DNA of 64,000 nucleotides from a virus. Within the stretch, counting starts at the first letter, position 1. Each line of letters opens with the position of its first letter. The position numbers were made by a program, and so were the translations under genes. Under the pieces are notes generated by a model. It saw only the letters and a list, made by a program, of their open reading frames with translations. It did no database searches and had not been told where the DNA came from. This document shows positions 29,839 through 57,768 of the stretch, one piece after another. The stretch is from positions 186,556 through 250,555 of IMG/VR virus record IMGVR_UViG_3300037042_006844; one strand, 5' to 3'.

Positions 29839-29883
29839 TTGGAGGAAGGAAACCTCTTCGGCTTTAGCCTAGGGGTAGTTGAC
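29839..29883 (+). mobile_element. Minimal IS605/TnpB-type element remnant (element A)
   Basis: A 45-bp solo element: left-end sequence TTGGAGGAAGGAAACC joined within the shared GGCTTTAGCC hairpin loop to right-end sequence TAGGGGTAGTTGAC. The left half matches elements B, C and D; the right half matches the right end of C. It looks like recombination or slippage between the two ends of a full element. It separates genes 29864-30550 and 29115-29834 and provides the stop of the former. Preceded on the plus strand by TTTCAT. Confidence 0.7.
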
Positions 29884-30550
29884 TGTATAGATTGCTTTTG
29901 AAATTGACGTATGTATCTTTTACATAGGATAGCTCATCTGCGCATTTTCTATAACTCAATTGATATGCTATGTGTTCTTCTGGTATGTATGATGTCATTT
30001 CAGTTCGTTTGTATAACTCATTGAATGTATAGTCGATTGAAAGATGCCAATTCCAGTGGTTCAGCATGTGTTTGAAAGGAACATATGCTGTGTTTCTGAT
30101 CATCATGAAATGTGTGGTGTGATGCCAGTTCAAAGGTTTCGAAACCAAATCGCTGATTTTTTCTTTTATTGTGTCAGTGTCGTGCATCGGATGATACCCA
30201 AGATTTAATATGTCCCAATCAGATGGAACTTTATTGTAAAACCTCTTAAACTTCTCTTGCCAATCTCTCAACAAAAAACAATCATCTTCAATGATCCCAA
30301 CTCGTTTAATGCCACTGATTCGACACGATTCGGTTATGGACAGATATGCCGAAATCAGACTGATGGATGGCCTGGACTCTCGTTGTGGGGGGCTATGAAG
30401 AATTCGGTTTGGATCGATAATTTCAAAAAACGGCGCGATGTGGAACTCAAATTTGACACCACGAGAATCCAAATGGCTTCGGATATAATCCACTCTATTC
30501 GAGTCGATGGTTGTTATGACAAAAACTTTTTCACAAATATCGTTTAACAT
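29864..30550 (-). CDS. GT25-like glycosyltransferase, copy 3
   Basis: A 228-residue GT25-like protein: CEKVFVITTIDSNRVDYIRS, RVGIIEDDCFLLRDWQEKFK, VPSDWDILNLGYHPMHD. Closest by eye to the 62427-63092 protein (same order and wording of motifs, both near 225 residues). The last codons (SQLPLG, then TAA) are read from element A, so the native C-terminus has been replaced by a short tail. It is divergent from the glycosyltransferase at 30589. Confidence 0.87.
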   Translation of the reverse strand: MLNDICEKVFVITTIDSNRVDYIRSHLDSRGVKFEFHIAPFFEIIDPNRILHSPPQRESRPSISLISAYLSITESCRISGIKRVGIIEDDCFLLRDWQEKFKRFYNKVPSDWDILNLGYHPMHDTDTIKEKISDLVSKPLNWHHTTHFMMIRNTAYVPFKHMLNHWNWHLSIDYTFNELYKRTEMTSYIPEEHIAYQLSYRKCADELSYVKDTYVNFKSNLYSQLPLG

Positions 30551-30588
30551 AAATTCCGGCCACTATATATGTATATCGAAATAGTCGC

Positions 30589-31506
30589 ATGGAAGTCACA
30601 ATTTTCACTTATAATAATGGTTCTGGTATTGTAGCAGACATACTCCTTTTGCAAAACCTGTTTATCAATAATGTAACAAAAACCGCAAAAGTCATATTCA
30701 CCGATGCTTGTGGTTGGGAGGCTCAAAGCGGCGATCTCGGCGTTTGGGTCCAAAATCCCAGATATGACCAATTGTTCCGTTTCAAAAAAAATATCTGGTT
30801 CATCAATGAAGAGTGGGTCACCGACTATGATCTGAGCCATATCAACGATTTTGATTATGTGGTATGCAAAAGTAAATTTGGCAAAAATTTACTTACGCCA
30901 TATAGGCAGGATGTTTTATACATTCCATTTTTAAGTTATGATTGTTATGACCCCACTATAATCCGAACTGATAGGTTTCTACATCTGAATGGAAAAGCCA
31001 TTCAGAAAAATACAGAATTGGTTATGCAGCAAACGGTGCCATTAACAGTGTTGGACGTAACATCGAGGTTCGAGAAAATACCAAACAATATCAATTATAT
31101 CACGGCCTTTTTGAACCGCAACCAAGTTAAATCGTTGCTCAATACCCACGCCGTCCATCTATGCCCTAGTATGTATGAAAGCTGGGGGCACTATTTGTTT
31201 GAAGGGCTATCAACTGGTGCGGAAATCATATGCAGCGATATAGCAGCATTTTCAGAGCATTTGGACCCAAATTTGGTGCATATGCTTCCCGCAGTCGAAG
31301 GAAAAAATTTGGATTATTGGTTTGACTCCGACAACGCTACAAACCATTTTTCTTTGCGCAAAAGCTACTACATCGATCCACAACTGTTTGCAGATTATAT
31401 AAACAATTTCAAACCCAAAGGAAACCATCACGCTCGTCGCCAGTTATATTTGGATATCATGTCCCGAAGTGAAAAACTGTTGATTGAGTTTTTCCTTAAC
31501 TTGTAA
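30589..31506 (+). CDS. GT-B glycosyltransferase
   Basis: A 305-residue GT4-like enzyme: MEVTIFTYNNGSGIVADILL at the N-terminus. The C-terminal half contains HAVHLCPSMYESWGHYLFEG, with the E/G pattern of the GT4 donor site, and IICSDIAAFSEHL. One of few plus-strand genes in this part of the glycan locus. TATATG about 20 nt upstream may be its -10 region. Its 3' end overlaps the convergent gene at 31496 by 11 nt. Confidence 0.85.
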   Translation: MEVTIFTYNNGSGIVADILLLQNLFINNVTKTAKVIFTDACGWEAQSGDLGVWVQNPRYDQLFRFKKNIWFINEEWVTDYDLSHINDFDYVVCKSKFGKNLLTPYRQDVLYIPFLSYDCYDPTIIRTDRFLHLNGKAIQKNTELVMQQTVPLTVLDVTSRFEKIPNNINYITAFLNRNQVKSLLNTHAVHLCPSMYESWGHYLFEGLSTGAEIICSDIAAFSEHLDPNLVHMLPAVEGKNLDYWFDSDNATNHFSLRKSYYIDPQLFADYINNFKPKGNHHARRQLYLDIMSRSEKLLIEFFLNL

Positions 31507-32245
31507 CAAACCTGTAGTTCAATCTGTCGTTGAAATTCTGTGGTGTGTATTTTGCAAAATTGTGTGTATCATAGAGCGATTGATTGTAGGATGCCCCCTC
31601 AACGCCAATATGGTTCAGTCTCGACAATTTTGGCGTGACTGTTTTGAAATCGTTTTTGATGTAATCCATGATTGTGTCCCCAACACAACCTTGATGATTC
31701 CATTTGCTCACGCACTCCCTCCACATTTTTGCGGTGCATAAATAACCCCATGTGGCAAAATACGACATTTCTGGAAATGCAGCCGAACCATAATTGTTTT
31801 TGATTTCCAAAATTTCTTTTCCATCATCATTCGTAGGTGGCTCAATCAAATTGTCTTTGTTGAGATACGTGAAAATAGTTTTATTGTCATAATACGAAGA
31901 ATTGATATAGAATTGAGTAATGTCGTTTATGTCATTGCTGAATATGCAATCATCCTCTATATAAATGGCGTGATCCAACCGTAACCGCTCAAAACTGTAA
32001 TACATGGTTACATATTGGTTGAGTAACAATCCATATTTGAACTGGTTGATCAACACCCGAACGTTTGGATATTTACGCAGTGCTATGATCGGATCTAAAT
32101 CCACAAACTCTGGCTCCACCAAAAACACAAAATCGATTTTGTCAAAATCTCGCTGACCCAAACAAGATTTTACATACTGGTTGAAATACCCAACTCTGTG
32201 TGGTTGCCCAAGATAAACTGGTGTGACAATTGTTGTTCTGCTCAT
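31496..32245 (-). CDS. GT-A glycosyltransferase-like protein
   Basis: A 249-residue GT-A-fold protein. TIVTPVYLGQPHRVGYFNQY begins the fold and AIYIEDDCIFSNDINDITQF holds the acidic metal motif. FATWGYLCTAKMWRECV resembles the acceptor region of GT13/GT2-type enzymes. The family and sugar are not determined. It overlaps the upstream DUF3431 gene by 4 nt and terminates convergently against 30589-31506. Confidence 0.82.
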   Translation of the reverse strand: MSRTTIVTPVYLGQPHRVGYFNQYVKSCLGQRDFDKIDFVFLVEPEFVDLDPIIALRKYPNVRVLINQFKYGLLLNQYVTMYYSFERLRLDHAIYIEDDCIFSNDINDITQFYINSSYYDNKTIFTYLNKDNLIEPPTNDDGKEILEIKNNYGSAAFPEMSYFATWGYLCTAKMWRECVSKWNHQGCVGDTIMDYIKNDFKTVTPKLSRLNHIGVEGASYNQSLYDTHNFAKYTPQNFNDRLNYRFVTS

Positions 32246-32862
32246 AAATCATCGGGTGTGCTATAATTCCAAATCAAAGGCCAAAGTCGCTCAAACACGC
32301 AACATGCTGTAAGTGTCTCTCTGTTATCGACTATTTTGGTGTATTGATTAAATATTGTTTGTGCGTGTATCCACCAATCTAGGCTTTTACTGACGATAAA
32401 CTTTCGAGGAACAATATACTGAGAACCCGCACTGAACACGAACTGCGTTGTGGTATTGTAACCCCAATTACCAAACAGTTTATAGCAAACTTCAAGCATG
32501 GGGAGGGACTCTCCGGCACCAGGCCCGCCAGTAAAATCTTTTGTAACTGGTCCCCAATTACTTCCCAGCCACACCACTTGATCTGGGTCTGGGTTTTTTC
32601 TTATTAAATCCAAAACATCCCAACAATGATCGAACGGGTCTGCTTGTAAGAAGACGGTTTGTGTATCTAAAGAATTGTAATTGTTTACTATGTGATGCAG
32701 CACTGTGCCAGTGTCTCGTCCGAAATTGGGCACGGATGTAAACTTTTGTTTTATATCTGGTAGTCCTTTGTTGTATATCTGAACACCACATGGTAACGAA
32801 TCTACCCAATCAATATTTTCTCGGTATCTGGTTATGATCACCGTCATCACAATTTGACCCAT
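32242..32862 (-). CDS. DUF3431 protein
   Basis: A 206-residue protein matching the DUF3431 pattern: VIITRYRENIDWVDSL, FGRDTGTVLHHIVNNYNSLD, TVFLQADPFDHCWDVL, SAGSQYIVPRKFIV, and a C-terminal CCVFERLWPLIW. DUF3431 proteins are found in fungi, bacteria and viruses beside glycosyltransferases and are thought to be GT-like, with no known reaction. Overlaps both neighbouring genes, so it is part of the coupled glycan operon. Confidence 0.85.
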   Translation of the reverse strand: MGQIVMTVIITRYRENIDWVDSLPCGVQIYNKGLPDIKQKFTSVPNFGRDTGTVLHHIVNNYNSLDTQTVFLQADPFDHCWDVLDLIRKNPDPDQVVWLGSNWGPVTKDFTGGPGAGESLPMLEVCYKLFGNWGYNTTTQFVFSAGSQYIVPRKFIVSKSLDWWIHAQTIFNQYTKIVDNRETLTACCVFERLWPLIWNYSTPDDL

Positions 32863-34025
32863 CCTTTTTTGATAACATCTACCACATATTTGCGATCTTC
32901 TTCAGTGACCCACCAACCGACCGGTATGCACACCAACTTACCAACAATGTCGTCCAAACTCGGCAAATGCACACTATATTCAGCCACGCATGTATGTTTG
33001 TCGTTTCTTTCATGAACTTGACTCACCATAATATTGTGGGCTTTCATATGGTTCATAAATCCCAACTTGTCATGCACCAATATGCTGTAAATCCACGCTG
33101 CTGATTGGCAATTGCCGTTCTGATTTACCAAAGTAAGGTTTGGAATATTGGCGAGATGTGTGTCGTAAAATGCCGCATTCTTTTTGTGAATTGCAATACT
33201 GGCATCAATATTTTTAAGGTTCTCAATACCGATTGCGGCATTAACATCGTTCATGTGAAATTTGAATCCCCATTCTGAAATGTTGGTTTCACATCGAAAA
33301 TCTTTACGGTCACTGGAACGGTCAATACCATACCAACGTAGCAGCTTGCCTCGTTCGTGATACCAGTCTGTGGGGCATATCAAAGCACCACCGTCCACGC
33401 TCGTCAAATGCTTGATTGCTTGAAAACTGAACACATTAAAATTGTGATATTCTTTACCTCCGACTTTGAGACCATCGTGAAATTTGCTGCCGAAAGCGTG
33501 AGCGCAATCTTCAATAACCATCGGAACAAAGCCAAAACGGTTTTTTGTTTTGCGTTTGATTTCCTCAATTCGATCAAGGTCGATTGGATAACCGCCCCAA
33601 TGCACCACCAATATCACTTTTGTATTTTTGGTGATTTTACGTTCCAAATCATCCAAATCCATGTTAATGGTTTTTGGATCAACATCGACCCATTTGATTC
33701 GCAGTCCATTGGCTAGGATTGGCCAATTGGTTGCAGTGCAAGTCATGGGTGTGGACAGAATTTCGCTATTTTCATCCAGCCCAGGCCACTCCAAATTTGG
33801 TTTTTTCAACAAATGTAAAGCCAGATGCAATGCAGAAGTGGCACTATTGGTGGTCAGTAGATGCTTGCAGCCAATATATCGTTTGAGTTTTGTTTCAAAC
33901 TCATCGACTTTCGGACCCTGACCGATAAAACCTGAATGCAGGACTTCGTTGACTGCTGCACTTACGGTGCTAGCCATTCTAACTTTGAAAAGCGGCAACA
34001 TATCTTTGTGGGTAGCTTTCGACAT
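32847..34025 (-). CDS. DegT/DnrJ/EryC1-type PLP-dependent sugar aminotransferase
   Basis: A 392-residue aminotransferase converting 3- or 4-keto nucleotide sugars to amino sugars. Motifs: SGFIGQGPKVDEFE, TTNSATSALHLAL, IEDCAHAFGS (Asp173 contacts the PLP ring), and FQAIKHLTSVDGGAL, where Lys205 forms the PLP aldimine. Full length, with all catalytic residues. With the GDP-mannose 4,6-dehydratase at 20870 it could make GDP-perosamine (4-amino-4,6-dideoxymannose); that pairing is inference, since the two are 11 kb apart. It overlaps the DUF3431 gene by 16 nt. Confidence 0.93.
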   Translation of the reverse strand: MSKATHKDMLPLFKVRMASTVSAAVNEVLHSGFIGQGPKVDEFETKLKRYIGCKHLLTTNSATSALHLALHLLKKPNLEWPGLDENSEILSTPMTCTATNWPILANGLRIKWVDVDPKTINMDLDDLERKITKNTKVILVVHWGGYPIDLDRIEEIKRKTKNRFGFVPMVIEDCAHAFGSKFHDGLKVGGKEYHNFNVFSFQAIKHLTSVDGGALICPTDWYHERGKLLRWYGIDRSSDRKDFRCETNISEWGFKFHMNDVNAAIGIENLKNIDASIAIHKKNAAFYDTHLANIPNLTLVNQNGNCQSAAWIYSILVHDKLGFMNHMKAHNIMVSQVHERNDKHTCVAEYSVHLPSLDDIVGKLVCIPVGWWVTEEDRKYVVDVIKKGWVKL

Positions 34026-34028
34026 AGC

Positions 34029-34922: not shown

Positions 34923-34925
34923 AAT

Positions 34926-36060: not shown

Positions 36061-36072
36061 AGTCTACTGAAT

Positions 36073-36112
36073 ACATAGTTATTATATAGGTTACATAGTT
36101 ATTATATAGGTT
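36073..36112. repeat. Perfect 20-bp tandem repeat (two units) carrying TATAAT
   Basis: ACATAGTTATTATATAGGTT occurs twice without a gap. On the minus strand each unit contains TATAAT, so the repeat duplicates a -10 box upstream of the methyltransferase gene at 36060. It lies in the short gap after the 36111-37229 gene, touching its stop codon. Confidence 0.85.
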
Positions 36113-37229: not shown

Positions 37230-38248
37230 AATAAATGTGTTCGGTGATATTGTTTTGTCAATGCAAGGTGCGATTGATAAAATTTAACATCGATGTTATG
37301 CTCCGTCAATACCTCATCAATGTTGTTCATAAACACCGAATATTCTGGGTGTTTTGCACAGACTTTCTCTAAAATTATTTGGAACCACGATAGCAATCTA
37401 AGTCCTTCAGACGGATTGGTTTGCAATTGCGATATGTATGGATACTGCGGGGATTTATCGATCATTTTGATCGTGTCTCCGAAATTGCGCATATGATAGT
37501 ATTTCGCCCCATTGAACATTTCATCATCGACCCGCGTGTCGTTTGAATTATTATAACAATACAACATATTCCGCTCGTTGACCAGAACGCTGCGACGATA
37601 GTCATACATTTCTTTGACCCTCACGCTCGGCAATAACGATGCTACATTACGAGAAAACAACTCCATACTTTCCACTGTCGCAACATCACAATTTTTATCT
37701 GGCGCGGCACTGTATTTCGTATAAAAATCATAGCTGCATCCAAATAATGTCGCCGCAAAACGAGTTTTTGCCCCTCGATTGGAGATTGGTCGCATGATCG
37801 GAATTCGATACATCAAATTCTTCGAATCAGTCATGTCCGCGTTTTGCCAATTCACAAACAAAACGTGGGTGGGGTGAACACGGGTTCCCGAATCCAAATT
37901 ACCCACGATATCGTAATTGTTCAAATCAGAAAAAATGTCTGTGAAAACGGAACGATCATAGATTACACAATCGCTATCCATTACAACAAACTTGTCCCCA
38001 GGTGACAACGTGGCTATACCACGCTCAATATTTTCTTGATGAATGATACTGCCACAGTCTTTCAAAATCCGAACAGTTTTTCCGTCGATCACAAACTCGC
38101 ACTCATCCAAACCCATTCGAGTTGGGCAGATGAGCACTTGATCGGCATCTATTCTATGAATATTATCCATCACGTATTCAAACAACAGCCTACCCAGCAA
38201 TTTGTTGGTGCGGTTATATTTGATGAATGGAATAATAACTGTGTTCAT
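37226..38248 (-). CDS. GT-A-like glycosyltransferase with DSD motif
   Basis: A 340-residue protein from ATG 38248, which overlaps the upstream stop as ATGA; a longer frame from 38287 is less likely. It begins MNTVIIPFIKYNRTNKLLG. KFVVMDSDCVIYDRSVF contains Asp-Ser-Asp for metal and nucleotide-sugar binding. A hydrophilic helical C-terminus follows. Belongs to the run of diverse GT-A proteins between 36 and 40.6 kb. Substrate unknown. Confidence 0.8.
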   Translation of the reverse strand: MNTVIIPFIKYNRTNKLLGRLLFEYVMDNIHRIDADQVLICPTRMGLDECEFVIDGKTVRILKDCGSIIHQENIERGIATLSPGDKFVVMDSDCVIYDRSVFTDIFSDLNNYDIVGNLDSGTRVHPTHVLFVNWQNADMTDSKNLMYRIPIMRPISNRGAKTRFAATLFGCSYDFYTKYSAAPDKNCDVATVESMELFSRNVASLLPSVRVKEMYDYRRSVLVNERNMLYCYNNSNDTRVDDEMFNGAKYYHMRNFGDTIKMIDKSPQYPYISQLQTNPSEGLRLLSWFQIILEKVCAKHPEYSVFMNNIDEVLTEHNIDVKFYQSHLALTKQYHRTHLL

Positions 38249-39147
38249 AACGTGGCGGCTAAAATTTTGCTTGAAGCATCTAGCCATTTATCATAAAATG
38301 CAACGTTGCAATTACGGCACAACTCGTAGAACCGAGTGTATGCCGTGTTTTGTCTTGCCAGTTTGTTGTGCAACGCCATAGTTAGATAGTCATAAGTGAT
38401 ACCCGTCATATGCTCCCACCATATATCGGGCATACGATTCAGCAACAATAACTGTTTGCCGTCATCAACCACATGCTCCATGATTTGCGTGGAAACGTAA
38501 TCAAAATGATCATACACCACATCTTCAATGCCGTCAATTACACAAATTGTTTTTTTGTTGGCAATCGTCATTGGAGCACTAAGCGCAAAATCTTTGGTGC
38601 CGTCAAACGGAGGAAAAAACTTCACTGCTTTATTATATGACACCCCGCAAGATTGTCGCGTCGCAAGATTTGGCATGGCTGAAAAATTTCGATCTGTTTT
38701 TTTCAAATTCGACATTCGACATCCCCAAAAACTAGGCCATAGTCGCACATCCATGATGCGCTGCCCAGCAGTATAATTTCCAAACAGCACATATTCTTGG
38801 TTTAACATGATGTCCACAATTCGGTCCCAGTCACCTATGAAATCTGGCTCGAAACTGAAAATGTAATCCGCATTGCTATTATCTATGGCGAGGTTCATTG
38901 CTATGCTTCGCCAGTCATGAATTCCGTTACTTTCATGGCGGCAGATCGTAATGTCACATTTACCAACAAGATCGTTCGTGATAAAATCGATGTGGCTGTT
39001 TTCACTCTGAGTCAACACATGATATCGAGCGACATCGAAAATGTAATGGATTTTATTGAATCTGGAATGATACCGATGAATAAAATCCCGTATCATGGGA
39101 CTATCAAATTCGGCAGCAGCAATTATAACAACATCTACTTTATTCAT
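38245..39147 (-). CDS. GT-A-like glycosyltransferase
   Basis: A 300-residue protein: VDVVIIAAAEFDSPMIRDFI at the N-terminus and DYIFSFEPDFIGDWDRIVDI with an acidic motif (EPD) at the DXD position. SFWGCRMSNLKKT and WWEHMTGITYDYL are further conserved-looking segments. The ATG at 39147 stands 5 nt from the left end of TnpB element B, which has pushed away its original operon junction with 39394-40557. Substrate unknown. Confidence 0.78.
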   Translation of the reverse strand: MNKVDVVIIAAAEFDSPMIRDFIHRYHSRFNKIHYIFDVARYHVLTQSENSHIDFITNDLVGKCDITICRHESNGIHDWRSIAMNLAIDNSNADYIFSFEPDFIGDWDRIVDIMLNQEYVLFGNYTAGQRIMDVRLWPSFWGCRMSNLKKTDRNFSAMPNLATRQSCGVSYNKAVKFFPPFDGTKDFALSAPMTIANKKTICVIDGIEDVVYDHFDYVSTQIMEHVVDDGKQLLLLNRMPDIWWEHMTGITYDYLTMALHNKLARQNTAYTRFYELCRNCNVAFYDKWLDASSKILAATL

Positions 39148-39152
39148 AATCT

Positions 39153-39421
39153 TTGGAGGAAGGAAACCACGACGGCTTTAGCCTCGTGGAGGAATTCCGA
39201 CCAATATAATAAGTTTTTTGACATCTTCAGTATTCTGTGATATAGTTATGTTTGAAGATTGATTTCTTCAAACATCTGCCTCACGTTAGAAATAATGTCT
39301 GGACAGCAGGCCACAGTCAATTGGCCAAACGGAAACCTCACGGTTTCCAATGAATGTAAATCTTTGAACATAAGTTTGGAGTCTTTCAAGCACCTATCCC
39401 TTTAGGGTAGGTGTGGTTGAC
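39153..39421 (+). mobile_element. Decayed IS605/TnpB-type element (element B)
   Basis: A 269-bp element. Left end 39153-39203: TTGGAGGAAGGAAACC, hairpin CCACGA..TCGTGG around CGGCTTTAGCC-type loop, then GGAGGAATTCCGACC. Right end 39391-39421: hairpin CACCTATCCC / GGGTAGGTG then TGGTTGAC. Compared with elements C and D, the left stem bases differ but pair, so structure is conserved. The interior has a possible TnpB C-terminal relic and no intact gene. It is preceded by TTCAT (the complement of the 39147 start codon). Confidence 0.75.
39256..39405 (+). pseudogene. Possible tnpB 3'-end relic in element B
   Basis: An open stretch ending at TAG 39405 inside the right-end hairpin, as the intact tnpB at 50955 does. 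Its translation includes SGQQATVNWPNGN, comparable by eye to DGQVTVNSPI near the end of that TnpB. No RuvC or zinc-ribbon sequence remains. The match is short, so this is tentative. Confidence 0.3.
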
Positions 39422-40557
39422 ACCAACCGTTTACAAACCGTTCCATAGATATCCTCATCCAATCCCTTTGTCAACGACCAAATTCCAAATTTGTCCAGCA
39501 CAGCCTGCATGTCATTTTCAGCCTCAAAAATGCCAATGATCTCGTCCAATCTTCCTTCGTAGTTGCCGAAAAATTCAAACTCCTCTGGTTTTTTAAGAGC
39601 ATACAACATTTGTCGCATTAGCAACAAACGGCGATACATTTCAACTATTTCCCGATATCCGTAATCGAATTGTCGGACGTGCCGCATATACGCAACATAG
39701 CTGGAATTTTCATCCCACACGCCATCGGTTGGTTTCCACAGTCTGTTGCCCAACATGCTGGACAACGATCCAACGTGGAAATCCAGAGACGTATCCAAAA
39801 TTTGTGGTATAAGCGCGTTATCTTCCAGTCTGCTATGATACAACTCATGTAGCATTTTAACACGTTTCACTTCTGGATTTTGATACAACTCCATAGAAAA
39901 TCCAACCATTGTATCACCATTACAATCCTCTGTCAATACAGTCTCGGAATCTCCCAGTTTCAACGTCGTTCCCACAGGCCATGCTCTGGCACAAAAATTA
40001 CGGCTTGAATTGAAAAAATGCTTTTTCTTGGTCAATAAAAGCGTGGGCCAGAAATTGAGTGTATATTCCTCTTTTCTCAGTTTGGCATTAAGATAAAAAT
40101 CAGGCTTACTATAAACATATTGTCGAATGAGTTCTGCCATATATGGAGTGCAAGAGCCTCTTGGGCACCCCAAAACGTCATAGTTCTCATCAAAATACTC
40201 TTTGATTTCGATTTCAAGCAATGCGGGATTCAGCACATAGTCGTCCTCCTCCATCAACAAAATATTTTCTTTGATGTCGGGTTCAAACCTAGTTAACAAA
40301 CTGTCAATATTATGACCATGCTGTCCAAGCGCATAGTTGTAATGGTTCTGCACATTTGGTAGTCGATTTAGCTGCCGCCCAATGTAATTTTTAATAAACA
40401 AAAACTCCATTGGATTAAGCTTGCCCATGCAGTCAATCGCAATATAGGTGTTGTTGACCAGATGGCTATATTTGCTATAGTTTTGTAGCCAGAACTGCAT
40501 TATCAATGGCTCACCGGTTGCAGGAAGCAATAGTGAAATTTCTCTGTTGGTGCTCAT
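39394..40557 (-). CDS. GT-A-like glycosyltransferase
   Basis: A 387-residue protein. EISLLLPATGEPLIMQFWLQ starts the nucleotide-binding half, and ENILLMEEDDYVLNPALLEI carries the acidic motif. NFWPTLLLTKKKHFF and DNALIPQILDTSLDFHVGSL lie in the acceptor half. The last ~9 residues (VSTTPTLKG) and the stop are encoded by the right end of element B, so the native C-terminus has been altered. Start overlaps the upstream stop by 4 nt. Confidence 0.8.
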   Translation of the reverse strand: MSTNREISLLLPATGEPLIMQFWLQNYSKYSHLVNNTYIAIDCMGKLNPMEFLFIKNYIGRQLNRLPNVQNHYNYALGQHGHNIDSLLTRFEPDIKENILLMEEDDYVLNPALLEIEIKEYFDENYDVLGCPRGSCTPYMAELIRQYVYSKPDFYLNAKLRKEEYTLNFWPTLLLTKKKHFFNSSRNFCARAWPVGTTLKLGDSETVLTEDCNGDTMVGFSMELYQNPEVKRVKMLHELYHSRLEDNALIPQILDTSLDFHVGSLSSMLGNRLWKPTDGVWDENSSYVAYMRHVRQFDYGYREIVEMYRRLLLMRQMLYALKKPEEFEFFGNYEGRLDEIIGIFEAENDMQAVLDKFGIWSLTKGLDEDIYGTVCKRLVSTTPTLKG

Positions 40558-44164: not shown

Positions 44165-44169
44165 AAAAT

Positions 44170-45588: not shown

Positions 45589-45602
45589 TGCGTATTGTTA
45601 TA

Positions 45603-46046: not shown

Positions 46047-46060
46047 AGCAAATATCTTCT

Positions 46061-46088
46061 ATCCTACCATAACTAGGCGACAATGCAA
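46061..46088 (-). promoter_or_regulatory. Sigma70-like promoter of the minus-strand glycan operon
   Basis: Minus strand: TTGCAT (46088-46083), 16 nt, TAGGAT (46066-46061), then 14 nt to ATG at 46046, giving a leader of about 7 nt. The divergent gene starts at 46144. Confidence 0.55.
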
Positions 46089-46143
46089 GAGTGTTGTTAA
46101 TTATATTTTAGTCGAACGCAGTTCTGTTGATATTTAAGATTAT

Positions 46144-47520: not shown

Positions 47521-47521
47521 T

Positions 47522-47845: not shown

Positions 47846-47847
47846 TT

Positions 47848-49789: not shown

Positions 49790-49841
49790 CTTAAAAATTG
49801 CCTATAGCACATCGATGAATTAACTGGTTTTAATGACATGT

Positions 49842-50801
49842 TCATGGTTTAATAAAAGTGTCGTGAATGTTATGGTAATTTATTCTACCAGAAAAAACTT
49901 GATCAAACGGAACATATATATACAATAACGCGTGTCTAACATAGACTGTATTTTGATCCATCGCGTGCAGTGCGCAATTCAAATTAAGCTTTCTTTCTGC
50001 ATTGGAGTCATTTACAAAATTTTTCATGAACGCATATACTATAGGATGGTCATTTTTGTTTAATCTATCAAACTCTTTATATAGATCATAATTGTGTTTG
50101 AGACAATTTTCAAAAAATAATTTCATCGTTGTTGGTGATCCAATGTGATAATAATCACCGCCGTAGAGATGCCCCGTGCGTGCAAGAAAAAAATTTAGGT
50201 GTATGATTCGTTTTTGTATTTGTTTTAGCGGCGAAATTATAAAATTGTTTATGTCCCTGAATTCATGTTCGTTTATTTCGGTCCCATAGCACATCAATAA
50301 ATCTGGCCGGGTGTGGATCACCAAATCAGCATCATCATTTACCAAGTCCACCATTTTTTCATACTTCACAAGCTGTCGGCTGGTCCAATAATCAAAATCA
50401 ATAACTCTATCTTTTAATTCGACATTTTTAATATTGCGCAGACAGTCTTCGTATTGATCAAACTGCTCTTTTTTTAATGCATCTACATCGGCCAATACTA
50501 TTTTTTTGAAATCGATGTGCCGTTTGAACTCATCGAGCCATTCGTTGAAATCATCCAGTGTATATTCTTTGTATAATTCTGGAAAGTATGTTTTGCCATA
50601 CTTCAAAATGGCTGGCTTAAAATTAATCTCTGGGTATGTGTATAAAACATGTTCAAATTCTATTTTGTCGTAGTTGGTGTTTGCCTCCTTATTTATATAG
50701 TCAATGTCCATTTTATCAAAAAAATTTTTGAAATACGTGGCAGTGGCACTGCCACGCAAATGACCTTTATATATAACTTGAATCTTTAATACGTTTTTCA
50801 T
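49842..50801 (-). CDS. Putative GT-A-like glycosyltransferase
   Basis: A 319-residue protein, likely glycosyltransferase. LKIQVIYKGHLRGSATATYF starts the fold, and DADLVIHTRPDLLMCYGTEI has the RPD motif seen in some uncharacterised GT-A proteins in the usual metal-site position. LNFFLARTGHLYGGDYYHIG and ENCLKHNYDLYKEFDRLNKN follow. The ATG (50801) lies 4 nt from the left end of TnpB element C; a TTGACA-17-TAAGAT promoter inside the element points at this gene. Confidence 0.72.
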   Translation of the reverse strand: MKNVLKIQVIYKGHLRGSATATYFKNFFDKMDIDYINKEANTNYDKIEFEHVLYTYPEINFKPAILKYGKTYFPELYKEYTLDDFNEWLDEFKRHIDFKKIVLADVDALKKEQFDQYEDCLRNIKNVELKDRVIDFDYWTSRQLVKYEKMVDLVNDDADLVIHTRPDLLMCYGTEINEHEFRDINNFIISPLKQIQKRIIHLNFFLARTGHLYGGDYYHIGSPTTMKLFFENCLKHNYDLYKEFDRLNKNDHPIVYAFMKNFVNDSNAERKLNLNCALHAMDQNTVYVRHALLYIYVPFDQVFSGRINYHNIHDTFIKP

Positions 50802-50863
50802 AATCTTGGAGGAAGGAAACCCCTTCGGCTTTAGCCAAGGGGAGGAATTCCGACCATTTAACT

Positions 50864-50892
50864 ATCTTAACACAACCACCTCAATTTGTCAA
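50864..50892 (-). promoter_or_regulatory. Outward-facing promoter in element C
   Basis: Minus strand: TTGACA (50892-50887), 17-nt spacer, TAAGAT (50869-50864), directed through the left-end hairpin into gene 49842-50801. The transcript would have a ~55-nt leader containing the hairpin. Confidence 0.6.
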
Positions 50893-50937
50893 CCACAAAA
50901 ATATTTTAACTTTTTTGATGTTTTGTTATTTTCATTA

Positions 50938-50946
50938 CTATTTATA
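50938..50946 (+). promoter_or_regulatory. CTATTTATA motif before tnpB
   Basis: CTATTTATA, 8 nt, then ATG of tnpB at 50955. A mobile element carrying the phage-type motif suggests adaptation to, or long residence in, this phage group. Confidence 0.5.
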
Positions 50947-50954
50947 TCGTAGTA

Positions 50955-52115
50955 ATGATAACATACAATGTCAAATTAAAGTTTGCTAAACAAGATGATT
51001 ACAATAATCTTCTTGAATCGCTCAAACTAAATCAATTGGCTTGGAATATCATAAGTGAAGAACGATTCTCAATGACGGGTGGAAGATTGAAGCTTCTTCA
51101 CGACAAGTGTTATTATAAAGTAAAAGAAGCAATTCCTACAATTCCTTCTCAATTTATCATTAAAGCAGAACAAGATGTAATTGCTACATATAAAACTATC
51201 AAGTCAAATAAACATAAACTTGATTCTCCTGCAATAAAAAAGAATCTATCAATACAACTAGATAAACGCATATACAAGTGGATAGATAAAACTAATATCA
51301 AAATAACAACATTAGATAAACAAGCAATCGCTTCGTTTGATGTGTATGATAAATTAAACCAATTTGACTTCAATAAGTTAAAAGATCCAAAACTATTTTT
51401 CAAAAATGGAGATTTTTACCTAAGTCTAATATTTGATACGAATGTTCCTTTTGTAGATAACAATAAAATCATAGGAATTGATGTTGGATTAAAAAGACTT
51501 GTATCAACAAGTGAAGGTATCATAATTAAAGGCAATGAATTCAATGGACATAAACGTAAAATTCGTTGGAACAAAAGAAAACTTCAATCCAAGAAAAAAT
51601 CACATTCCGCAAGAACAAAACATAAAAAACTTAAAAGGCGTGAATCAAACTTTAGCAGAAATTATATACACAATGTTACAAAGAATGTAATTGTAAATAC
51701 AAGTGCAAATACACTCGTAGTAGAAGATTTGAGCAAAATCAAAAGCAAAAATAAAGGTAGAAGATTTAATAATAGATTGAGTCAACTTCCATTTTTTGCG
51801 TTTAGATCCATATTAACATACAAGGCACAACTTTATGGGAAAAAAGTTGAAACAGTTAACCCTGCCTATACAAGCCAAATAGACCATAGAGGTTTAGCTG
51901 GTGGAAAAAGAAAGGGATGTAGATATTATGGATTGGATAAAGTAATATTAGATTCGGATGTAAATGCCGCAATCAATATTGCAAATAGATATGTAAACAA
52001 TTTAAGTTTGCATAAACACTCTGTTTCGTGCTGCAAAGCACTTGATGGACAGGTGACTGTCAACTCACCAATCGTCGGAAGTTTCTTCCGGCAAGCCCCT
52101 ATGGCTTTAGCCTAG
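50955..52115 (+). CDS. tnpB: TnpB, RNA-guided RuvC-like nuclease of element C
   Basis: A 386-residue TnpB. RuvC residues are intact: Asp176 (IIGIDVGLKRL), Glu257 (LVVEDLSKIK), Asp335 (LDSDVNAAINI). The zinc-ribbon position reads TSQIDHRGLAGGKRKGCRYY, without the four cysteines; a subfamily of bacterial TnpBs naturally has this form, so it is not a defect. A basic region at 195-235 (KRKIRWNKRKLQSKKKS) binds RNA/DNA in this family. The stop codon lies in the right-end hairpin, as usual when the guide RNA overlaps the 3' end. Different subfamily from the IS607 TnpB at 1178. Confidence 0.92.
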   Translation: MITYNVKLKFAKQDDYNNLLESLKLNQLAWNIISEERFSMTGGRLKLLHDKCYYKVKEAIPTIPSQFIIKAEQDVIATYKTIKSNKHKLDSPAIKKNLSIQLDKRIYKWIDKTNIKITTLDKQAIASFDVYDKLNQFDFNKLKDPKLFFKNGDFYLSLIFDTNVPFVDNNKIIGIDVGLKRLVSTSEGIIIKGNEFNGHKRKIRWNKRKLQSKKKSHSARTKHKKLKRRESNFSRNYIHNVTKNVIVNTSANTLVVEDLSKIKSKNKGRRFNNRLSQLPFFAFRSILTYKAQLYGKKVETVNPAYTSQIDHRGLAGGKRKGCRYYGLDKVILDSDVNAAINIANRYVNNLSLHKHSVSCCKALDGQVTVNSPIVGSFFRQAPMALA

Positions 52116-52126
52116 GGGTTGTTGAC
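52060..52126 (+). ncRNA. Predicted omega-RNA 3' scaffold of element C
   Basis: In IS605-type elements the guide RNA covers the 3' end of tnpB and the right end, and its guide begins right after the element. Here the stretch has two hairpins: GTCGGAAG..CTTCCGGC and CCCCTA-TGGCTTTAGCC-TAGGGG, then TTGTTGAC. The guide would start at 52127 with AACGATTTCGCCAGAA, antisense to the end of gene 52099-52551. The 5' end of the RNA cannot be placed from sequence. Inferred by analogy, not observed. Confidence 0.5.
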
Positions 52127-52551
52127 AACGATTTCGCCAGAACATTAGTTTCCGCATTCATTCTTCCTTTGTTTTGATCGAACATCGTAAACAACTTATG
52201 AAATTGGTCGTCTTTGTTGATAACTACCCAAGTATTGGTTTGCTCATCCATGCACATGACCACGGCATCCAGTTTGATTTTGGCAAGCTTTTTGTCCAAA
52301 ATTTCAATAATAGTATCAGAAGCGACTTTCAATGGAATCGTTTCAGTCTCGGTTTTGACGTTTATCACAACCAAATTTTCGTATAGAGTTTCGAGGTCAA
52401 TATTGGCGCGTTGCCATTGTTGTTCTGTATCTGAATAAAACACCACTGTATTATCATCAATCCTCACAACATCGGTTTTATTGATATGCCGCAATGTGCT
52501 CATTGGCACGGAATACATTTTGTTGTTGTAGTATATCTCTTTCATGCTCAT
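52099..52551 (-). CDS. Hypothetical protein with C-terminus altered by element C
   Basis: A 150-residue protein of unknown function. Predicted beta-rich start (KEIYYNNKMYSVPMSTLRHI), then helix/strand region with IPLKVASDTIIEILDKKLAK and AVVMCMDEQTNTWVVINKDD. The last 10 residues (LSTTPRLKP with preceding S) and the stop codon are encoded by the right end of element C, so the original C-terminus is lost. It overlaps the start region of nothing else downstream but is coupled by 4 nt to the upstream 876-residue glycosyltransferase. Confidence 0.75.
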   Translation of the reverse strand: MSMKEIYYNNKMYSVPMSTLRHINKTDVVRIDDNTVVFYSDTEQQWQRANIDLETLYENLVVINVKTETETIPLKVASDTIIEILDKKLAKIKLDAVVMCMDEQTNTWVVINKDDQFHKLFTMFDQNKGRMNAETNVLAKSLSTTPRLKP

Positions 52552-55178
52552 AGGCTTTTGTAGATTTTCGAATTGACCAGACTTTCTAGGAAATACTCAA
52601 TCTCGACTTTGTAACGAATTGTTTTGAGATACAAATGCGCAGACCGAATCAACTCCAAATTTTGGATTTTTTGCTCTAAATCATTTTGATTTTCAATGTA
52701 AAGTGGATATGACTCTCCCAAATATTCTTCCACGGCTGGAAGCCGGTTGATAAACAATGGGGTGCCACGGGCAATGCACTCGATGATGCCGTTGTTGGCA
52801 CTGCTGTCATACAAATCGAGATACACCAAATTCTCGGACAAAATCTGGTCGTATTCTTCATTTGGCAAAAAATCCAGCACTTGCACAGAGTTTCGTTGCT
52901 CAATCGAAACCGTTTGATTGTTCACGACCTCTTCGATCTTCTCCAACCGCATGATCGTTTCTTTGCATTTATTGTTGGGAAGCAATCGAATTTTTTGATA
53001 ACCTTGGGGTTGCACAGTATATAGTGCATTTAGCTTTCGCAGCCACCAGCCGATTGATATCAATTTTTTGTTCGGGTTGCTGGCAAATTTATCAAAATCA
53101 AACTGCACCGCTGGTATTTCAGTTGGATGCAATAAAGATTCAACTTGAACAAACGGCAAATATTGTCTTATGAATCGGGCATGATATTCGCTTAGTGTGA
53201 ACAGCCCTTTGCATTTGCGCAGACTATCCAGAAAATAAGGGTCGTGTAGGATAATATTGCAAAACGCACTATTGTCACTGAACCAGGGAGACATGTTCGG
53301 TGGGTTGTGGAGAAAACCCACCCAGCTTTTGTTGTATGGAATCAATTTTTGAAGAACAGATTCGTTCTTTCTCCAACTAAAATTGTTCTCTAAAAACCCG
53401 TCACAATATACACCATTGTCGGAATTTAATGCCGACATCTCATTCAACACATAATTCCAACCTGAACGATGTGAGTAGAAACTGAGTTGGCGACCCAGAT
53501 TGAGTTTTTTTGGATATTTTTGAAGTGCTACTGTTTCTTTGAACTTCAAAACTACATCGCCGTATTCGCCTTTGGTCAACACGTTGCTTTTCTCGACGAT
53601 GAATCCGGTTTCATTCAACACGTCCGCTTCGAAATTTCTGTCTTTGAGAATTAGTTTGCTGGTATTATTACGAATGCCATTGACAAACAAATCAACTATT
53701 TTGATGCCATACAAACTGGTTGGGGCACGATTGATCAGATCCCCACTGAACACATCTGTTTGAAACTGTATATTTTTAGTGTGTTTGCCGATGATTTTGA
53801 TGGAATACTGACCTCGTTTCAACTCAAAATTATGAACCGTGCCATCGACTGTGAATTTCAAATCACAATCTTTCATCGACTCGATCAACATTTCTAGTTT
53901 GTAAACTTCTCCTCCGACGATTAGTTCGGATGTGCCATTACTCCAAACCCCCGAACTGAGGTTTTCTTGGTGCCATCCATTTTTGAAATAGATGGGAAAC
54001 AACGAGCTTTCTTCGGTGAGATCGGTATGGGGCTGATAACTGTCGAGATGTGTGAAATACACGCTGCTGCGAATACTGTCATAATATGCTGCTTTGAAAA
54101 CATTGCTTAAATCGTCATATGATGGATCAATACCTTTGGTGCGGGGATCGCAAACGGCATCTGTTACAATGTTGTCTGTGATTTTGATTACACTATAATC
54201 TACCTCGTATAATTTTTTATATCCAGTGAGATAGTCCACCATACCACCGTGAAGTGGAGTGATGATTCCTTTGTTTTTCTCTTTTGCGGTATAACACGGA
54301 ATGCTGAAGCCTTCTCCTCGACTGACGTTTACATACACGTCGCAATTGTCATATAAACTCTGCATCCGATCAAAACTCAATGCATCCGTTATCAACGCTA
54401 TCGGAGCGTATGCAAAATTGGCGTGCTTGTTTTTGATTTTATTGACGATCAGGTTTTGAATCGTTTTGTCAAAACCCTTCAAATTAAATTTGTTGTCCGT
54501 CAGTTTGAGAACCAACAACGTTTCATCATCAAACTCGAACGTGCTCAAATAATTGTCGATCAAAAAAGATGTGTTTTTTCGACCAGCCAACGTGGTTACG
54601 TTCAGAAATTTGATGCGTTTTTCAAAACGACGATAATTTACGGCAACAGGTGAGAAAATTTTGGCACAATTCAGCGTGTCGATTAAATTGATGCTTTCGT
54701 ATGGAATGCTGGGCACCGTATGGGGGTCAACCACAATTTCTTTTTTGACACCTGATTTAATAAATACTTCTTTGGTCCATTGAGACGGAACACTAACAAT
54801 ATTCACAATACTATCATTAATAGCTTTTACCCATTTTTCTGGCAATGGATCAAAATCCCACACGGTTCTGCCAATGATTTTTCGGTCTCCAAACAGATCG
54901 GAGTAGTTTTCAAAAATTTTACCCCACATATTGGGGGTGATATGAACTACTATTTCCGCATCTTTTAGTTTTTCGGATCGCCCAAAAAGGGGAAGTTTGC
55001 GTAGGTTGCTATGGAAATACTTTGCGAACTCCGTGTTGTTTTTGGTGGTAGCGCCGGATACTGGAACAAAATAAACATCTACACCTTGCTGCAAAAGGCT
55101 ATACATATAACCCTTTGCAGCATTGGCATATCCGCTAGAACCGTCTGCACCAAAATATACAACTTGTTTAGAACTCAT
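52548..55178 (-). CDS. Large three-part glycosyltransferase (GT-B + beta-sandwich + GT-B)
   Basis: An 876-residue protein. N-terminal ~380 residues: GT4-like, VVYFGADGSSGYANAAKGYM, HITPNMWGKIFENYSD, VPSQWTKEVFIKSGVKKEIV, YVNVSRGEGFSIP, LHGGMVDYL. Middle ~395-530: beta-sandwich module like the small proteins at 43739 and 45603 (GWHQENLSSGVWS, ELKRGQYSIKI). C-terminal ~570-876: a second GT-B-like unit, LSFYSHRSGWNYVLNEMSAL, FLHNPPNMSPWFSD, YLDLYDSSANNGIIECIARG, where IIECIARGTPLF is the donor-site motif. Two catalytic units suggest it builds a disaccharide or a repeat. The leader carries a hairpin and a CTATTTAT motif. Confidence 0.9.
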   Translation of the reverse strand: MSSKQVVYFGADGSSGYANAAKGYMYSLLQQGVDVYFVPVSGATTKNNTEFAKYFHSNLRKLPLFGRSEKLKDAEIVVHITPNMWGKIFENYSDLFGDRKIIGRTVWDFDPLPEKWVKAINDSIVNIVSVPSQWTKEVFIKSGVKKEIVVDPHTVPSIPYESINLIDTLNCAKIFSPVAVNYRRFEKRIKFLNVTTLAGRKNTSFLIDNYLSTFEFDDETLLVLKLTDNKFNLKGFDKTIQNLIVNKIKNKHANFAYAPIALITDALSFDRMQSLYDNCDVYVNVSRGEGFSIPCYTAKEKNKGIITPLHGGMVDYLTGYKKLYEVDYSVIKITDNIVTDAVCDPRTKGIDPSYDDLSNVFKAAYYDSIRSSVYFTHLDSYQPHTDLTEESSLFPIYFKNGWHQENLSSGVWSNGTSELIVGGEVYKLEMLIESMKDCDLKFTVDGTVHNFELKRGQYSIKIIGKHTKNIQFQTDVFSGDLINRAPTSLYGIKIVDLFVNGIRNNTSKLILKDRNFEADVLNETGFIVEKSNVLTKGEYGDVVLKFKETVALQKYPKKLNLGRQLSFYSHRSGWNYVLNEMSALNSDNGVYCDGFLENNFSWRKNESVLQKLIPYNKSWVGFLHNPPNMSPWFSDNSAFCNIILHDPYFLDSLRKCKGLFTLSEYHARFIRQYLPFVQVESLLHPTEIPAVQFDFDKFASNPNKKLISIGWWLRKLNALYTVQPQGYQKIRLLPNNKCKETIMRLEKIEEVVNNQTVSIEQRNSVQVLDFLPNEEYDQILSENLVYLDLYDSSANNGIIECIARGTPLFINRLPAVEEYLGESYPLYIENQNDLEQKIQNLELIRSAHLYLKTIRYKVEIEYFLESLVNSKIYKSL

Positions 55179-55191
55179 TTGTGAATGAATT

Positions 55192-55215
55192 ACCCACCCG
55201 CTAAAGCAGGTGGGT
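55192..55215. repeat. Hairpin in the leader of the 876-residue glycosyltransferase gene
   Basis: ACCCACC..GGTGGGT with inner GC pairs and a TAAA loop, followed on the plus strand by TTTTCT. The loop resembles the CTTTAG loops of the TnpB element ends, but flanking left- or right-end sequence is absent. It could be a terminator for plus-strand transcripts, a leader structure on the minus strand, or an old element end. Confidence 0.55.
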
Positions 55216-55232
55216 TTTCTGCTCCCTAAAAG

Positions 55233-55240
55233 ATAAATAG
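55233..55240 (-). promoter_or_regulatory. CTATTTAT motif upstream of glycosyltransferase gene
   Basis: Minus strand CTATTTAT, about 55 nt before ATG 55178, unlike the other copies, which are 3-8 nt from the start. The hairpin at 55192 lies between, so this transcript would have a structured leader. Confidence 0.4.
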
Positions 55241-55272
55241 TGCTGTAACCAGTTTAGTGATTTATTATACAA

Positions 55273-56232
55273 TCACTTCGATGTGGTTTTGATGATTTTG
55301 GCTATACAAGCCATGAATGTGATTTCTTTGTCAACCACCATCGAATTTTGATATAAACTTTCAGATATGTCGATGATCACACTAATGTCATTTCCGTTGC
55401 TGTATTCAGATACCTTGTTGTAGAGTTCAGAATACAACTCATCAAACATTTTGATTCCCGCATCGTTAACCAGTTGGCGAACTTCATTGAAAACTTTTTT
55501 ATTGGTTTTTGCTTCCCGCAACAACTGCACCAATTTTTGTTTTAGATCATGCCCAGCACTTTGGGTCTTGATCAACTCCAAAACTCCATTCGTAGAGCTT
55601 TGCTGCATGAAATTTACAATCTTTCGAATATCTGGATAGAAATCTTTGACAACAGTTGCCACGGTTGGCATGTCGTATTTGATCTTTTCTGCATCTAGGA
55701 TTTTGATTGCGTATTTCGCCACATCTTTCATTGTGGGAGGCTCCAGCTTAAACACTTGGAGACGACTCCGCAATGGGTCAATCATCTTTTCATAATAATT
55801 GCAGGTTAGAATAAACCGTGTGGTTTTGCTGTATGTTTCCGTCAGATTACGCAACGATGCCTGAGATGCTGCCGACATATAATCAGCCTCATCCAAAATC
55901 ACAATCTTCAAATCGTGAAACCCCATCGATGCAGCGAATGGCTTGATTCTATCGCGAACAAAATCCACGCCCGTATTGTCGGATGCGTTTACATACATCG
56001 TATCACACGGAATATTTTTGGCCAGAATTTTTGCCAGAGTGGTCTTGCCTGTGCCAGGGGAGCCATGAAACAAAAGGTGTGGAACCTCTTTTTTAGAGAT
56101 GAAACTCGTGATAATCGTCCGAAGTTGGTCATTGCAAATGTAATTATCTGTCGTCTCTGGGCGGTATTTCTCGACCCAAAGACCATGATCGTTCACAACC
56201 GTCCGAGTGATGGTTTGTTCAAAAAAACTCAT
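55273..56232 (-). CDS. Sliding clamp loader subunit (T4 gp44-like, RFC small-subunit type AAA+)
   Basis: AAA+ ATPase that opens the clamp and loads it on primed DNA. VEKYRPETTDNYICND is the RFC box II-like start; Walker A is FHGSPGTGKTTLA (~55-67), Walker B VILDEADYMS, sensor 1 FILTCNYYEKMIDPLRSRLQ, where SR-L holds the arginine-finger region. The length, 319 residues, equals T4 gp44. A gp62-like small partner was not recognised nearby. Lies 5 nt downstream of the sliding clamp gene on the same strand. Confidence 0.95.
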   Translation of the reverse strand: MSFFEQTITRTVVNDHGLWVEKYRPETTDNYICNDQLRTIITSFISKKEVPHLLFHGSPGTGKTTLAKILAKNIPCDTMYVNASDNTGVDFVRDRIKPFAASMGFHDLKIVILDEADYMSAASQASLRNLTETYSKTTRFILTCNYYEKMIDPLRSRLQVFKLEPPTMKDVAKYAIKILDAEKIKYDMPTVATVVKDFYPDIRKIVNFMQQSSTNGVLELIKTQSAGHDLKQKLVQLLREAKTNKKVFNEVRQLVNDAGIKMFDELYSELYNKVSEYSNGNDISVIIDISESLYQNSMVVDKEITFMACIAKIIKTTSK

Positions 56233-56237
56233 AAATA

Positions 56238-57014
56238 TTAGTCGATGTTTTTGATTTCAACCAAGAAATAGCTTCCACTGAACGTGTCAGTATCTACTTC
56301 GATGTTTGACAACCCAGCATCGCTGACTTTCCAAACTGCATTATCACACTCACTGTTGCTGGTGATGATTTCTTTCAAATACTTTGCATTGAAATGCATC
56401 GTCTTGCCCAGCTTATCCTTGCCACCAGTTGGTTTGATTTCGACGTTGATTCGATTGCTGTTGACACTGCTGTATCCCAGCGTCATTTTGATCTTTCCTT
56501 TTTTATCGGTTGTGAGAGTCAAAACATCATTGTCGCTCAAAGCATTTTTTGCCTTGATAAATGTTGCTGTAAACTCTTTGGTCAACGGAATTTCCAAATT
56601 GAAATTGGGAAGCTTTTTGAGAGGAGGAACGACTGGAATGACGCTAAGATCGGCGGTGCAATACTGAACATCTGTTTCGCCACTCACAACTGTCATGGAT
56701 GTGATTTTCTCGACACTTTCCGTATTGCCGTCCAAATCTTGTGTTTCAACTTTAATTTTGTTTGGAGTAATTTCAACATCGTCGCCAAGAACCGTGAGCA
56801 TTTTCTTGAGCTTGCTGGTATCATTGACACCAATTTCCAAATCTTCAAGACCAGCGTTGTCTTTCAGAGTAACAAAACTAAGAACACCACGATCATCGCT
56901 CATAGAGCTTGTTTTGATGTTTTTATCTTTTGCTGAAACGGTCCATTTGACGCTTTCAATGGTGCCGTTGAGGGAGTATTTATCGATAAACGAATTGAGT
57001 GTAGCTTTCTTCAT
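56238..57014 (-). CDS. DNA polymerase sliding clamp (T4 gp45-like)
   Basis: A 258-residue protein close to T4 gp45 (228), recognised by the beta/alpha repeat layout: KKATLNSFIDKYSLNGTIES, SFVTLKDNAGLEDLEIGVND, FTATFIKAKNALSDNDVLTL and MHFNAKYLKEIITSNSECDN. It would form a trimeric ring tethering the polymerase and, in T4, activating late transcription. The assignment is strengthened by its position directly upstream of the clamp loader gene and near the DNA polymerase. It has a strong host-type promoter 8 nt before ATG, indicating early expression. Confidence 0.88.
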   Translation of the reverse strand: MKKATLNSFIDKYSLNGTIESVKWTVSAKDKNIKTSSMSDDRGVLSFVTLKDNAGLEDLEIGVNDTSKLKKMLTVLGDDVEITPNKIKVETQDLDGNTESVEKITSMTVVSGETDVQYCTADLSVIPVVPPLKKLPNFNLEIPLTKEFTATFIKAKNALSDNDVLTLTTDKKGKIKMTLGYSSVNSNRINVEIKPTGGKDKLGKTMHFNAKYLKEIITSNSECDNAVWKVSDAGLSNIEVDTDTFSGSYFLVEIKNID

Positions 57015-57022
57015 ATTTGACT

Positions 57023-57051
57023 ATTCTACCGTATTGTTGTGTGGATGTCAA
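57023..57051 (-). promoter_or_regulatory. Sigma70-like promoter of the sliding clamp gene
   Basis: Minus strand: TTGACA (57051-57046), 17-nt spacer, TAGAAT (57028-57023), then 8 nt to ATG at 57014. The -35 box lies in the last codons of gene 57048-57455. Confidence 0.75.
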
Positions 57052-57455
57052 CTGAATTGAAAAAATTCAGATGTGTGTGTATTTATTGTGACTTTCTCGC
57101 TGATACATGGTGTGCCGTCCGATAGGAACAGATCAGTGGGAGAGATATAAAAATTGTTGATGGCATAATCTGCATATGCCACAGTGCGCATTTGATAGTA
57201 AACCATGACGTTGCTTTCGTCATTGGTGCGAAACTCAATGTAATACACTTTCGGATCGCTCAATCGAAACAGTTGCGAACGGGGGATGTAAAGGTTTTGT
57301 TGGTTAAGTTGAGTTTTTGTGAATTCAACGTATGGTCCACGTTGCCCAATTACGACGCGTTCGTATTTGTCCGCTATAAGGGTGCCAGATTTTGTGTATA
57401 GATTGATTTTACACCCATCTTCAAAAATATTCAATAACTCGCTATCTTTTTTCAT
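57048..57455 (-). CDS. Hypothetical protein
   Basis: A 135-residue beta-rich protein of unknown function: INLYTKSGTLIADKYERVVI, YVEFTKTQLNQQNLYIPRSQ, YIEFRTNDESNVMVYYQMRT. No catalytic motif. It stood between the DNA polymerase and clamp genes before element D was inserted in front of its ATG (4 nt away). A promoter-like TTGACT-17-TAGGAT within the element points to it. Position suggests a replication-linked role, but there is no direct evidence. Confidence 0.75.
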   Translation of the reverse strand: MKKDSELLNIFEDGCKINLYTKSGTLIADKYERVVIGQRGPYVEFTKTQLNQQNLYIPRSQLFRLSDPKVYYIEFRTNDESNVMVYYQMRTVAYADYAINNFYISPTDLFLSDGTPCISEKVTINTHTSEFFQFS

Positions 57456-57519
57456 AGTTTTGGAGGAAGGAAACCTCTTCGGCTTTAGCCAAGAGGAGGA
57501 ATTCCGACCACTTCTTAAT

Positions 57520-57548
57520 ATCCTATACTAGGGTCAACCGAAAGTCAA
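57520..57548 (-). promoter_or_regulatory. Outward-facing promoter-like sequence in element D
   Basis: Minus strand: TTGACT (57548-57543), 17-nt spacer, TAGGAT (57525-57520), directed at gene 57048-57455 through the left-end hairpin. Same arrangement as in element C. Confidence 0.5.
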
Positions 57549-57594
57549 TACGAAAGTGAATGCTCCCAAGGTCTAAAGACCTTGGGCGTCTGTG

Positions 57595-57732
57595 TTAAGT
57601 TGCCTTAACAAAAGAGTCCATTCCGACTCTCAAAATGTTTCGTGCTGCGTTAAGGTCTCGTCCAATGTTAAGATTACAAATAGGACATTTGTGCTGTCTC
57701 TCCGACAACTCCTTCTTAACTATGGTTCCGCA
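57595..57732 (-). pseudogene. tnpB 3' fragment (zinc ribbon and C-terminus)
   Basis: Translation on the minus strand gives CGTIVKKELSERQHKCPI then CNLNIGRDLNAARNILRVGM and DSFVKAT-stop: the second half of a TnpB zinc ribbon plus the RuvC III motif (RDLNAARN) and C-terminus. Everything upstream, including RuvC I and II, is missing; the fragment runs straight into a right-end hairpin of the other orientation. It belongs to a TnpB subfamily different from both intact ones in the window. Confidence 0.85.
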
Positions 57733-57768
57733 CCCCTACGTCTTTAGCGTAGGTGTGGTTGACATATG

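Follow-up and report, generated by a model that had tools for sequence, protein, structure and literature searches.

A phage-borne IS200/IS605-type family with a TTCAT target, probably mobilised in trans and located largely at operon junctions

The window analysed here, a stretch of 64,000 nucleotides, corresponds to positions 186556-250555 of a phage record of 303,564 bp (G000) and contains four related elements, A to D, in the same orientation. In a scan of the window, TTGGAGGAAGGAAACC was found exactly at 29839, 39153, 50806 and 57460, all on the plus strand and as the sequence-only reading had described, with TTCATANT directly 5' of each (4/4); the chance level in shuffled sequence was 0.57 matches with up to three mismatches, and no shuffle reached five. 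Element A (29835-29883, 49 bp) carries no genes and is a hybrid in which the left end, up to its hairpin loop, is joined to the right arm of the right hairpin and GTTGAC. Element B (39148-39421, 274 bp) comprises a left end, an internal remnant resembling the tail of tnpB and a right end with the guide CAAG. Element C (50802-52126, 1325 bp) has intact ends and tnpB (50955-52115, plus strand, 386 aa) and lacks tnpA, with part of its right hairpin and the GTTGAC end at 52099-52126. Element D (57456-57763, 308 bp) combines the common left end with material from another TnpB family in reverse orientation (a C-terminal fragment and a right end, like those at 257873-259027 of the record), and its right hairpin is altered. 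The right ends follow GGTNGTTGAC (GGGGTNGTTGAC or GGTGTGGTTGAC) and finish at 29883, 39421, 52126 and 57763, closing with GTTGAC. Immediately left of the elements lie the plus-strand TTCAT targets (29830-29834, 39143-39147, 50797-50801 and 57451-57455 for A to D), the complement of which is the ATGAA start of minus-strand genes at 29115-29834, 38245-39147, 49842-50801 and 57048-57455; the ATG within TTCAT opens reading frames of 239, 300, 319 and 135 aa, respectively.

The association with TTCAT extends beyond the window. Four further exact copies of the left end are present in the rest of the record, two of them on the opposite strand, and a survey of the whole record found TTCATANT, and hence TTCAT, before all eight exact left ends on both strands. 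Since TTCAT is kept with elements on the opposite strand, a local strand bias is not its source. A ninth element after TTCAT, near 148.7 kb of the record, carries a different left end. The right ends of the copies show no target duplication, and the left boundary is set by analogy, as the bases following TTCAT differ among copies. No close phage records were matched by megablast against the public set, no match to the left end in the genome contigs scanned was judged real after inspection of hairpin and spacer, and a literature search found no paper joining TTCAT with TnpB or IS200 as a target, although such an absence is not proven.

The proposed IS605-type nature of the ends is borne out by subterminal hairpins with guide bases at the hairpin foot, folds having been obtained for the left end of B and the right ends of C and D. 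These bases can be read with the code of IS608, in which guide base 4 pairs with position -1, as follows from its GL (AAAG) and CL (TTAC) sequences together with its structure. In IS608, each hairpin has at its 5' foot a guide of four bases that pairs with the cleavage site, base 1 pairing with position -3 and base 2 with position -4 (PMC5934647). For TTCAT the code requires G A x A, and GAAA is what the elements carry; in C, for example, the foot of the left hairpin reads GGAAA (50815-50819, plus strand), of which the last four bases suit TTCAT. The chance that one random guide suits one target is 1/64. Natural variants follow the same rule: in a related phage (G001), two GAAG left ends lie after TTCAC and one AAAA left end lies after TTTAT, so that the left ends read give the target/guide pairs TTCAT/GAAA, TTCAC/GAAG and TTTAT/AAAA, the guide readout leaving out the left end of the family at 183411-184613. 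In another TnpB family (257873-259027 of the record, minus strand), the left guide AAAG follows TTAC and the right guide GAAG precedes TTCAC, and the right ends of the main family carry CAAG, which pairs with TTGAC. The code does not hold for A and D at the right, where the end is damaged and the guide has been lost. A further exception is the nested right end of the copy at 164209 of the record, where one position mismatches depending on the chosen start of the stem. The left hairpin also covaries, with 97.6% of cells paired, double changes in six of nine pairs and none of 500 shuffles as high. Taken together, the guide code and the covariation identify TTCAT as the transposition target without recourse to the flanks, and the earlier proposal of TTCAT as the insertion target thus agrees with the flanks, the guide bases and two empty sites described below.

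Several copies appear to be defective, and each in its own way. The left and right hairpins share the 10-bp sequence GGCTTTAGCC, which is the likely deletion junction of A. Hybrids of the same type were also found in other phage contigs (L062/L136/L140, L087 and L306), with looser forms elsewhere, and this left/right hybrid hairpin is a recurrent type of scar. A has a single guide, which is unable to match its two ends at once, and the copy should no longer be able to move; more generally, the guides of A and D mismatch their own right ends, so that both copies look immobile now. B, which retains a tnpB-like tail and a right end, could still give a guide RNA. Outside the window, the copy at 164209 appears to consist of a left end of the main family in which a solo from another family is nested, and that at 142984 has no recognisable right end. 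Other TnpB families with their own ends, at 183411-184613 and 257873-259027 (minus strand) of the record and with right ends closing in GTTCAT and ATTCAC, indicate that the record holds several IS605-type families. In unrelated phage contigs (L298, L304, L307, L308, L311, L313 and L316), solo hairpins with varied stems, each about 50 bp long, lie between TTCAT and GTTGAC and may be deletion scars or mobile units.

Related phages provided two empty sites whose junctions could be read, one of D and one of the copy at 267004 of the record. In L034 and L035, whose DNA polymerase is 68-70% identical, the polymerase gene is followed directly by a homologue of the 135-aa gene next to D, which starts with ATGAAA and bears no element. 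Likewise, L345 and L346 hold the two genes flanking the 267004 copy adjacent to each other, with ATGAAA starts and no element. A third site is alternately occupied: the 368-aa gene beside the ninth element has an orthologue in L062 (61% identity over 366 aa) whose start is also occupied, by a main-family left end there and by the other left end in this record. The relatives examined yielded no empty site of A, B or C. Specifically, no relatives of the 39394-40557 protein in related records and none of the 49842-50801 protein in viral contigs were found, hence no direct empty site for B or C, and a search with the 876-aa protein encoded at 52548-55178 returned only distant matches (at most 34% identity) that were of no use for C. 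For the 164209 copy, relatives of the NAMPT-like gene end at roughly the same codon but provide no precise empty site. The suggestion that the elements split operon junctions is therefore confirmed through relatives for D and the 267004 copy, and for A, B and C by joining of the flanks only.

Joining the flanks of B and C places the TGA stop of the upstream gene within ATGAA, that is, an ATGA stop/start overlap, and in the joined flanks of the G001 copy at 245420 and of the 164209 copy, the upstream TGA lies within ATGAA in the same way, as a stop only. Of the 52 same-strand neighbours in the window, eight share an overlap of exactly 4 nt. It had been proposed that entry into such junctions does little damage, which is roughly right, except that the upstream genes of A, B and C lose their own stop and end within the element with an altered tail. 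At B and C, the upstream frames enter the antisense right end for eight codons and then stop, adding STTPTLKG and TAG at B (approximately 39394-39417, minus strand) and STTPRLKP to the gene at 52099-52551 at C, and at A the upstream gene ends in SQLPLG with its own last residues replaced. At D, the upstream gene is unchanged because its stop lies outside the element. On the downstream side, the antisense left end offers start contexts that are within the native range and not especially good. Window genes show no excess of Shine-Dalgarno sequences (4/68 vs 4/68 in the control). Among the 64-68 genes predicted in the window, leaders are A/T-rich, with T at position -1 of the start codon in 66%. 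These features suggest a host with initiation independent of Shine-Dalgarno pairing. Insertion at such junctions would seem to be tolerated. An adaptive role for three-frame stops in the antisense right end was considered and rejected: one frame was stopped in seven of seven variants and all three in two of seven, and given so few three-frame stops and the fact that the same bases encode the TnpB tail, no adaptive stop is claimed. It is doubtful that these elements have been adjusted, in their target, ends and stops, to the ATGA overlaps of phage operons, making insertion nearly silent; if they had, the target code would pick the overlap, the right end would close the upstream protein following a few added residues and the left end would give a new start context.

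No Y1 transposase was found in the window, as noted earlier, or anywhere in the record as it stands. Among A to D only C keeps tnpB (plus strand), although other TnpB genes exist in both the window and the record, a point that the sequence-only reading had passed over. Y1 transposases occur in relatives. G001 carries an N-terminally truncated tnpA within a TTCAT element, and intact TnpA is present in L323 (a 353.8-kb contig) and in the related phage contig L327. The L327 element is complete, with main-family left and right ends and divergent tnpA (135 aa) and tnpB (387 aa), and is located both at TTCAT and at a gene start; its TnpA matches Y1_Tnp (9e-36) and transpos_IS200 (2.5e-38), the IS200 model scoring far above the REP model. 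In the TTCAT IS605 elements of L321 (G001:318500-325500) and L323, extra open reading frames lie between tnpA and tnpB, one of them cysteine-rich, HNH-like by eye and with no Pfam match; they are possible passenger genes. Because the record holds only tnpB-bearing, deleted or hybrid copies, the transposase was probably supplied in trans, and a same-ended transposase such as that of L327 probably moved them. Trans mobilisation, as first proposed from the four copies, is thus the natural inference. No serine recombinase gene of the IS607 family was found inside A-D or the L327 parent element. At 1178-2966 of the window (minus strand), next to a thymidylate synthase gene (42-1175), a TnpB gene (PF07282) and an overlapping upstream frame matching the N-terminal domain of serine resolvases form an IS607-like pair.

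The TnpB of C retains the acidic RuvC motifs GIDVG, VVEDL and DVNAA and scores 140 bits against the guided_TnpB model (cut-off 100), and ISDra2 TnpB is among its best solved relatives; neither it nor the 13 aligned relatives have the CxxC pairs of a zinc ribbon. In ISDra2, the transposition target and the TnpB TAM coincide (PMC8612924), and by this analogy TTCAT is a candidate TAM of the C protein. TnpB acting at this putative TAM would cut empty alleles and thereby keep or home the element. TnpB-driven homing between co-infecting phages, in place of Y1 transposition, is unlikely to have been the main route by which the family spread. Such an origin would fit the presence of TnpB and absence of Y1 in the record, as well as the sharing of ends between lineages: the TnpB proteins of C and of the copies at 267004 and 270543, all in the same phage, are 42-53% identical, whereas that of C is 85% identical to the TnpB of the G001 copy at 328730 and that of the 270543 copy is 84% identical to L108 TnpB, so that one set of ends is common to at least three lineages of TnpB. 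However, homing fills only an allelic site, which leaves nine unrelated sites that share TTCAT beyond its reach, and the guide code is a feature of Y1 transposition; homing may still maintain copies.

The placement of the copies can be explained by the target together with the survival of harmless insertions. All four window copies lie at gene starts, but the expectation that every copy does so fails for the 164209 copy (minus strand), which lies at the stop codon, TGA, of a NAMPT-like gene. By a simple ORF-based gene set and for the window only, its 265 TTCAT sites fall into 232 inside genes, 18 at gene starts (the four occupied sites included), three at stops only and 12 others, so that ATGAA starts make up 18 of the 33 sites at which no gene would be broken. 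Four of four copies at starts is improbable against random TTCAT (p = 2e-5) but not against harmless TTCAT (p about 0.09). Active steering to starts or ATGA overlaps, beyond the TTCAT target itself, gains some support from the record, where eight of nine TTCAT copies are at starts (p about 0.036 vs harmless sites). Yet over all phages read, about 21 of 35 copies are at starts by hand count, matching the share of starts among harmless sites (p 0.37-0.52 for 20/34 or 20/36 copies under a survival background); moreover, some copies lie at TGA stops or intergenic sites, and both TTCAC copies are off starts. Since the two shares agree, survival of harmless insertions explains the placement; the steering to gene starts put forward earlier is not needed and is quite improbable, and the target together with survival sets where the copies lie, leaving room for no more than a slight additional preference.

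We therefore consider it very likely that A-D belong to a phage-borne IS200/IS605-type family that is moved by a Y1 transposase, has a GAAA-coded TTCAT target, is probably mobilised in trans and occupies operon junctions by survival. The target, ends, guide code, two empty sites, parent element and split overlaps are established at the level of sequence, from which the mechanism may be outlined. The family would move as single-stranded DNA through a Y1 (HUH) transposase, supplied in trans by, for example, complete same-ended elements of related phages, and would insert directly 3' of TTCAT without target duplication. The choice of target would be encoded by the element, GAAA at the 5' foot of the left hairpin pairing with the target and CAAG likewise with the TTGAC right cleavage site. 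TTCAT reads on the other strand as ATGAA, a frequent gene start in these gene-dense genomes and at times part of an ATGA overlap, and this commonness at starts would leave most non-destructive insertions at the junctions of an operon and antisense to it. That the repeats are instead non-mobile regulatory hairpins (terminators or leaders) before genes, which their short hairpin form at operon junctions might suggest, is hardly credible, as full-length members bear tnpB or tnpA and tnpB, relatives have the junction without the hairpin, and copies also lie away from starts. The natural series TTCAT, TTCAC, TTTAT and TTAC, in which guide and target covary as in IS608, makes the code readable in wild elements, and the family provides a TAM candidate, TTCAT, together with a TnpB clade without zinc ribbon. 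It also illustrates how a five-base target plus selection can put phage transposons at gene junctions without gene-sensing machinery.

Among known systems, IS608 of Helicobacter pylori resembles this family in the divergent tnpA/tnpB of the parent element, the subterminal hairpins and the hairpin-foot guide with the same pairing positions, but uses TTAC with AAAG where TTCAT is used with GAAA here, and the window copies lack tnpA. ISDra2 of Deinococcus radiodurans shares a TTNAT pentanucleotide target and a TnpB related to that of C; its target is TTGAT rather than TTCAT, while the C protein lacks a zinc ribbon and its TAM is only a candidate. Mobilisation in trans of tnpB-only (IS1341-type) and IS605 elements has been argued for Halanaerobium (PMC7290912), where tnpB-only elements likewise have intact ends, tnpB and no tnpA of their own; the present family differs in its phage genome, its solo hybrid hairpins and its placement at operon junctions. 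Element A, a solo hairpin about 50 bp long that carries a 5' guide, is similar in this to REP sequences (TnpA-REP), but its left guide is combined with a right cleavage site with which that guide is unable to pair. Compared with these systems, the family represents a standard IS605 mechanism whose setting is unusual; support for its target is good, and the position of copies at gene starts is clearly accounted for.
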